In this document: positions 32,939-32,981 of the stretch, piece after piece
Numbering within the stretch: the first letter of the stretch is position 1
How the letters are laid out: each line of letters opens with the position of its first letter
From: a virus
Virus record (IMG/VR): IMGVR_UViG_3300020034_000047
Coordinates: 1-37,819 of that record
Reading direction: 5' to 3' (one strand)
DNA: 37,819 nucleotides
Made by a program: the position numbers and the translations under genes
Notes under the pieces: model-generated
Database searches by the model: none
What the model was told of the DNA's origin: nothing
The model's input: only the letters and a program-made list of their open reading frames with translations

Positions 32939-32981
32939 TCGCATTACGAATGCGTTGCTCTACCAACTGAGCTATTGCGGC
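32939..32981 (-). other. candidate attP: 5' portion of tRNA-Thr(CGU)
   Basis: Read on the minus strand from 32981 this is GCCGCAA (acceptor 5' strand), TAGCTCAGTTGGTAGAGC (complete D arm), then CGCATTCGTAATGCG (anticodon arm, anticodon CGT). After the anticodon stem the match stops: there is no T arm or 3' acceptor strand, so it is not a working tRNA. It sits next to integrase 2. A bacterial tRNA-Thr(CGU) gene (thrW type) is the likely attB. The fragment being the 5' rather than the 3' part is unusual. Confidence 0.65.

Follow-up and report, generated by a model that had tools for sequence, protein, structure and literature searches.

The temperate phage sequence in IMG/VR record IMGVR_UViG_3300020034_000047 carries the 5′ half of a tRNA-Thr(CGU) gene close to a complete tyrosine integrase, and we consider it very probable that this half is the attP of that integrase (integrase 2), recombining with a host tRNA-Thr(CGU) gene by crossover in the anticodon loop. 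On integration the phage, not the host, would then supply the promoter-proximal part of the rebuilt tRNA. The source is a metagenomic viral record, and by "the window" we mean its full 37,819 nt. The features discussed below are collected in Table 1.

Table 1. Features of the window that bear on the proposed attP
Feature	Position	Strand	Remarks
tRNA-Thr(CGU) 5′ half, tRNA positions 1-42, proposed attP identity segment	32940..32981	-	Identical over all 42 nt to the beginning of complete tRNA-Thr(CGU) genes (18 bacterial contigs)
Core-type site formed by the anticodon stem-loop ACGCA-TTCGTAA-TGCG, an inverted repeat with a 7-nt centre	32940..32955	-	Read from the sequence
Anticodon loop TTCGTAA (anticodon 32946-32948), predicted overlap/crossover region	32944..32950	-	Placed by symmetry and by the limits of identity
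Phage leader of 76% A+T, adjoining tRNA base 1 on its upstream side	32982..33081	-	In a lysogen, would stand in place of the host promoter
TATAAT box	33011-33016		29 nt upstream of tRNA base 1
Inverted repeat AATTAAAACAA / TTGTTTTGATT, arms 32987-32997 and 33027-33037	32987..33037	.	Around the TATAAT box
Integrase 2, tyrosine recombinase of 275 aa	32061..32888	+	PF00589, 55.9 bits; PHROG 1 integrase
Integrase 1, second complete tyrosine integrase of 337 aa	26474-27487		Followed by an HNH endonuclease gene

A tRNA-Thr(CGU) 5′ half with exact limits

Read on the minus strand from 32981 to 32940, the window holds GCCGCAATAGCTCAGTTGGTAGAGCAACGCATTCGTAATGCG, which comprises the acceptor 5′ strand, the D arm and the anticodon arm of a tRNA with anticodon CGU (by parts, GCCGCAA-TA-GCTC-AGTTGGTA-GAGC-A-ACGCA-TTCGTAA-TGCG). 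The fragment starts exactly at the 5′ base of the mature tRNA and ends with the 3′ strand of the anticodon stem. A search of a genome collection returned 18 exact 42-nt matches, and since each of them lies at the very start of a complete tRNA-Thr(CGU) gene, chance is excluded as the origin of the fragment. The matching contigs belong mostly to Halomonas strains and to Gammaproteobacteria MAGs, several of the MAGs coming from bog or palsa (peat); one matching record carries the label Flavobacteriales and another just that of Proteobacteria. In other viral contigs, the exact 42-mer was not found.

An earlier note on this DNA had proposed a 43-nt attP segment made from the 5′ part of tRNA-Thr(CGU), to be looked for in the tRNA-Thr(CGU) genes of hosts. 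The search bears out the location and the identity of the segment, and identity to the host genes is indeed confined to the 5′ part. It runs from tRNA base 1, upstream of which the sequences are unrelated, to base 42. The length, however, is 42 nt: base 43 is T in the host genes and A in the phage (32939). The presence of a tRNA-Thr(CGU) 5′ half in the phage is thereby confirmed.

We rejected the reading that the window holds a complete tRNA. ARAGORN finds none anywhere in the window, and with the Rfam tRNA model the fragment reaches 22.7 bits, under the cut-off of 29; the tRNA-Thr piece is thus only a half. Given that the window is a metagenomic viral record, the half might instead owe its presence to chance or to contamination, with host DNA joined to the phage through an assembly error or an imprecise excision. 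We regard this as extremely improbable, because host similarity ends exactly at tRNA bases 1 and 43 and the flanks are unrelated, whereas a chimera or an imprecise excision would have brought host flanking sequence with it.

Phage gene context and integrase 2

The fragment lies 51 nt after the integrase 2 gene, and its opposite flank carries phage replication genes (Toprim primase, DnaB-like helicase and PolA). The presence of phage genes on both flanks argues that the fragment is an attP and not the end of a prophage. Among the virion genes, the portal matches Pfam P22_portal (496 bits), the coat matches P22_CoatProtein (101 bits) and the large terminase has Terminase_6 domains (Pfam). In portal, coat and terminase, the virion genes of this temperate phage are thus of the P22 type.

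The catalytic set of integrase 2 is intact (R139, the K166/K169 region, H232-x-x-R235, H254 and Y264), and these residues are invariant in four viral relatives (66-77% alignment identity). An attP beside a complete tyrosine recombinase, as read in the earlier note, is therefore well supported by the short distance, the complete active site and the phage flanks. That integrase 2 acts on the fragment is what we infer from adjacency and architecture, which for att sites are strong evidence without being proof.

By tblastn, the four closest relatives of integrase 2 are 64-75% identical to it, and we saw no tRNA piece next to their genes: those records gave no hit with the tRNA model, and neither did the parts of them that were searched permissively, a half tRNA being near the detection limit. 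The sensitivity of the model to a half tRNA is marginal, the window's own fragment having an E of 0.44 in 8.5 kb at its score of 22.7 bits. Elsewhere these records match the tested window proteins only at the HNH gene. Having no detectable tRNA piece in their records, the close relatives were rejected as a guide to the integrase 2 site.

The phage has two complete tyrosine integrases, and this, together with the existence of close integrase 2 relatives that have no tRNA piece, could be taken to mean that integrase 2 uses another site, the 5′ half either serving integrase 1 as its attP or being left over from an earlier integration system. We think this very unlikely. The fragment is 51 nt from integrase 2 but >5 kb from integrase 1, and it is undamaged over its 42 nt with a start that coincides with tRNA base 1, features that a relic in decay would have lost.

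Core site and predicted products of integration

Att sites in tRNA genes are described as having a 7-bp overlap and a palindromic stem, with inverted core sites on either side of the overlap (PMC8371274). The anticodon stem-loop within the shared segment fits this arrangement of a 7-nt overlap with inverted core sites, with the cleavage points placed by prediction. The exact crossover point in attP would on this basis fall in the anticodon loop. When the phage 5′ half was joined in silico at the anticodon loop to the 3′ half of a host gene (that of locus L141), the product was a complete tRNA-Thr(CGU); the reciprocal junction contains no complete tRNA, and nor does attP alone. The join agrees with the earlier proposal that the phage supplies the promoter-proximal half of the tRNA. 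The same proposal had put the crossover at or after the anticodon arm, and this needs amendment, the anticodon loop being the best position for it rather than one after the arm.

The model that we favour for integrase 2 is then as follows. The enzyme would recombine the copy of the anticodon stem-loop in attP with the identical sequence in the host tRNA-Thr(CGU) gene, and crossover in the anticodon loop would join the phage 5′ half to the host 3′ half, giving an intact tRNA-Thr(CGU) at one prophage end. Because the phage carries positions 1-42, the rebuilt tRNA would sit behind phage DNA, cut off from the host promoter, while the host's own 5′ half and promoter would be left as a dead stub beside integrase 2 at the other prophage end.

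The leader upstream of the half tRNA

The 100 nt of phage leader that would come to lie upstream of the rebuilt tRNA have 76% A+T, compared with 48% for the contig, a value above that of 99.9% of the 100-nt windows in the contig. The two arms of the inverted repeat around the TATAAT box are each 11 nt long and 91% complementary (repeat search), and the repeat may be an operator or a pair of integrase arm-binding sites. Scans for sigma-70 promoter, intrinsic terminator and IHF consensus sequences gave nothing above chance, and in the leader the consensus scan found no two-hexamer sigma-70 promoter. A phage promoter upstream of the rebuilt tRNA is therefore plausible but putative. A further step, which we put forward tentatively and hold to be rather doubtful, is that in lysogens the host tRNA-Thr(CGU) might be driven by a phage promoter with an operator-like inverted repeat on its flanks, such that the prophage would control the tRNA supply or couple it to its own regulation.

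An AT-rich leader with a TATAAT box would also suit a half that is itself transcribed, as a tRNA-derived fragment with some other role (a decoy for an anticodon nuclease or an RNA regulator), the neighbouring integrase being incidental; the anticodon stem-loop, which is the target of anticodon nucleases, is complete but for one closing base pair. We judge this to be highly improbable. The limits of the fragment are those of an att site, no two-hexamer promoter match lies upstream of it, and a 5′ half adjacent to an integrase occurs independently in a second phage and in a prophage (L006 and G006, below).

Host and search for integrated forms

The exact 42-nt match is present in at least 11 genomes that were searched as one gammaproteobacterial family, the family around MAG bog_1223. 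One MAG of this family has a contig encoding TerL, portal and coat proteins 65%, 51% and 69% identical, respectively, to those of the window. MAG bog_1223 has the exact tRNA-Thr(CGU) match and also a relative of integrase 2 at 46% identity (L149, G023:C17, 1504-2223). This relative no longer aligns to integrase 2 over the C-terminal part that contains the catalytic His-x-x-Arg and Tyr, and it is probably a decayed integrase. The most likely host, judged from these likenesses, is the family around bog_1223. Halomonas is a possible host; its tRNA-Thr(CGU) has the identical 42 nt, and so the tRNA alone cannot fix the host.

Searches of 217 genomes of the family and 296 of the order found no tRNA-Thr(CGU) gene occupied by a prophage with a close relative of integrase 2. 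The expectation in the earlier note that integrase 2 prophages would be found at this gene thus met neither a counterexample, in the form of a prophage integrated elsewhere with a different core, nor an instance at tRNA-Thr.

The 5′-type arrangement in other elements

An unrelated phage (L006) has a tRNA-Thr(CGU) 5′ half (893-941) ~60 nt after its integrase, with phage sequence on both flanks. A prophage in genome G006 (L054, 699-740, and L144, 1495-1560) is bounded by a 5′ stub on one side and by the tRNA on the opposite side, and the gene beside its att is homologous to that of L006. We also observed that the 5′ halves of L006 and G006 have opposite orientations relative to their respective integrase genes. 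Most hits of a looser tRNA-Thr pattern were enterobacterial thrW genes in full, and a 5′ half beside non-tRNA sequence was seen only in L006, L054 and a further record, L012.

L012 (IMGVR_UViG_3300021604_000042) is a separate case. Here, a host tRNA-Thr(CGU) is interrupted at the anticodon loop by an element of ~10.5 kb, which has an integrase and a helicase/primase-like gene and brings a complete tRNA-Thr(CGU) of its own (L012 coordinates 84-129, 243-318 and 10687-10733). The two host halves rejoined at ATTCGTAAT give a complete tRNA-Thr, and neither half is complete alone. It looks like the tRNA-dependent integration described in actinobacteriophages (PMC10865867), but the element is of a different kind from those phages. 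A second genome, gammaproteobacterial, has the same unit (L235, G155:C149, ~6010-6290), consisting of a tRNA-Thr(CGU) 5′ stub, a ~120-nt leader, a complete tRNA-Thr(CGU) and a terminator-like hairpin. This unit and L012 80-370 are 78% identical over 278 nt despite different tRNA acceptor stems, and together they look like a conserved replacement-tRNA cassette.

Cousins of integrase 2 were sought in the order to which MAG bog_1223 belongs. At three loci (L167, L168 and L169), integrases 32-35% identical to integrase 2 have a complete, co-directional tRNA-Arg(CCU) 70-85 nt downstream; where an integrase is followed by a co-directional intact tRNA-Arg(CCU), the element must supply the 5′ half. 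One of the genomes with such a cousin, G040 (L233/L218, G040:C29, and L234, G040:C48), also has displaced 5′ stubs of tRNA-Arg(CCU), three in tandem within ~1.1 kb, on a contig other than that of the integrase and complete tRNA. Two of the three stubs consist of positions 1-39, ending at the anticodon loop. This suggests repeated 5′-type integrations at one tRNA gene. Other cousins (L150, L170, L172, L173, L181 and L182) have the usual 3′ arrangement. The 5′ and 3′ arrangements are interspersed across the integrase tree, on which four changes of the 5′ label are required; well-supported branches force three or more of these, while the root and some long branches are unsure. The tree suggests that the half carried by the element has changed repeatedly and is not fixed for each integrase lineage.

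Comparison with known systems

The closest parallel is P22, which the window phage resembles in portal, coat and terminase, in having a tyrosine integrase and in the isoacceptor gene used (thrW, a tRNA-Thr(CGU)), with the shared core ATTCGTAATGCG. The two differ in the part of the gene that is carried. P22 attP corresponds to thrW positions 31-76, the 3′ part, and its lysogens keep the host promoter, whereas the window attP corresponds to positions 1-42 and the phage would supply the 5′ part. The two attP sequences overlap at tRNA positions 31-42 and carry opposite halves. The likeness to P22 and thrW drawn in the earlier note is accordingly sound, the P22-type portal and coat models matching and P22 attP holding the part of this isoacceptor gene that complements the one found here.

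The same note was right that most phages carry the 3′ part. In Islander, 3760 of 3919 tRNA islands have a 3′ fragment and 159 a 5′ fragment (PMC4383910). When E. coli thrW was compared with GenBank phages, 107 records matched; of the best 60 of them, two span the gene from end to end and the other 58, all partial, are 3′ pieces. The 5′-fragment islands of Islander have a displaced 5′ part, as would be expected here, but they are integrated islands and the window has an attP in a viral record. A regenerated bacterial tRNA retains its original promoter with very few exceptions (review, PMC8371274). The use of the 5′ half is known from the pTN3-like archaeal integrases and is seldom met in bacteria (PMC8371274, PMC5495485). 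The archaeal plasmid pTN3 is like the window in its 41-bp identity to a 5′ half and in rebuilding the tRNA away from the original promoter (PMC5495485, PMC8371274); in pTN3, however, attP is inside the integrase gene, which is split on integration, whereas the window attP is outside the gene.

The tRNA-dependent lysogeny of actinobacteriophages (PMC10865867) shares with the window a tyrosine integrase, crossover in a tRNA gene and a solution to the loss of an essential tRNA. Those phages share only ~8-10 bp with the host gene and carry a whole tRNA (PMC10865867), whereas the window phage has a 42-nt half and no whole tRNA; given the long shared segment and the lack of a complete tRNA, the window system is not tRNA-dependent lysogeny.

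The 5′-half attP of the window is, then, a well-formed example of a rare but known class, and a clean mirror image of P22 and thrW, with the same isoacceptor gene, an overlapping core and the opposite half carried. As such, it opens a direct test of what drives the rebuilt tRNA in 5′-type lysogens, where the gene is without its own promoter.
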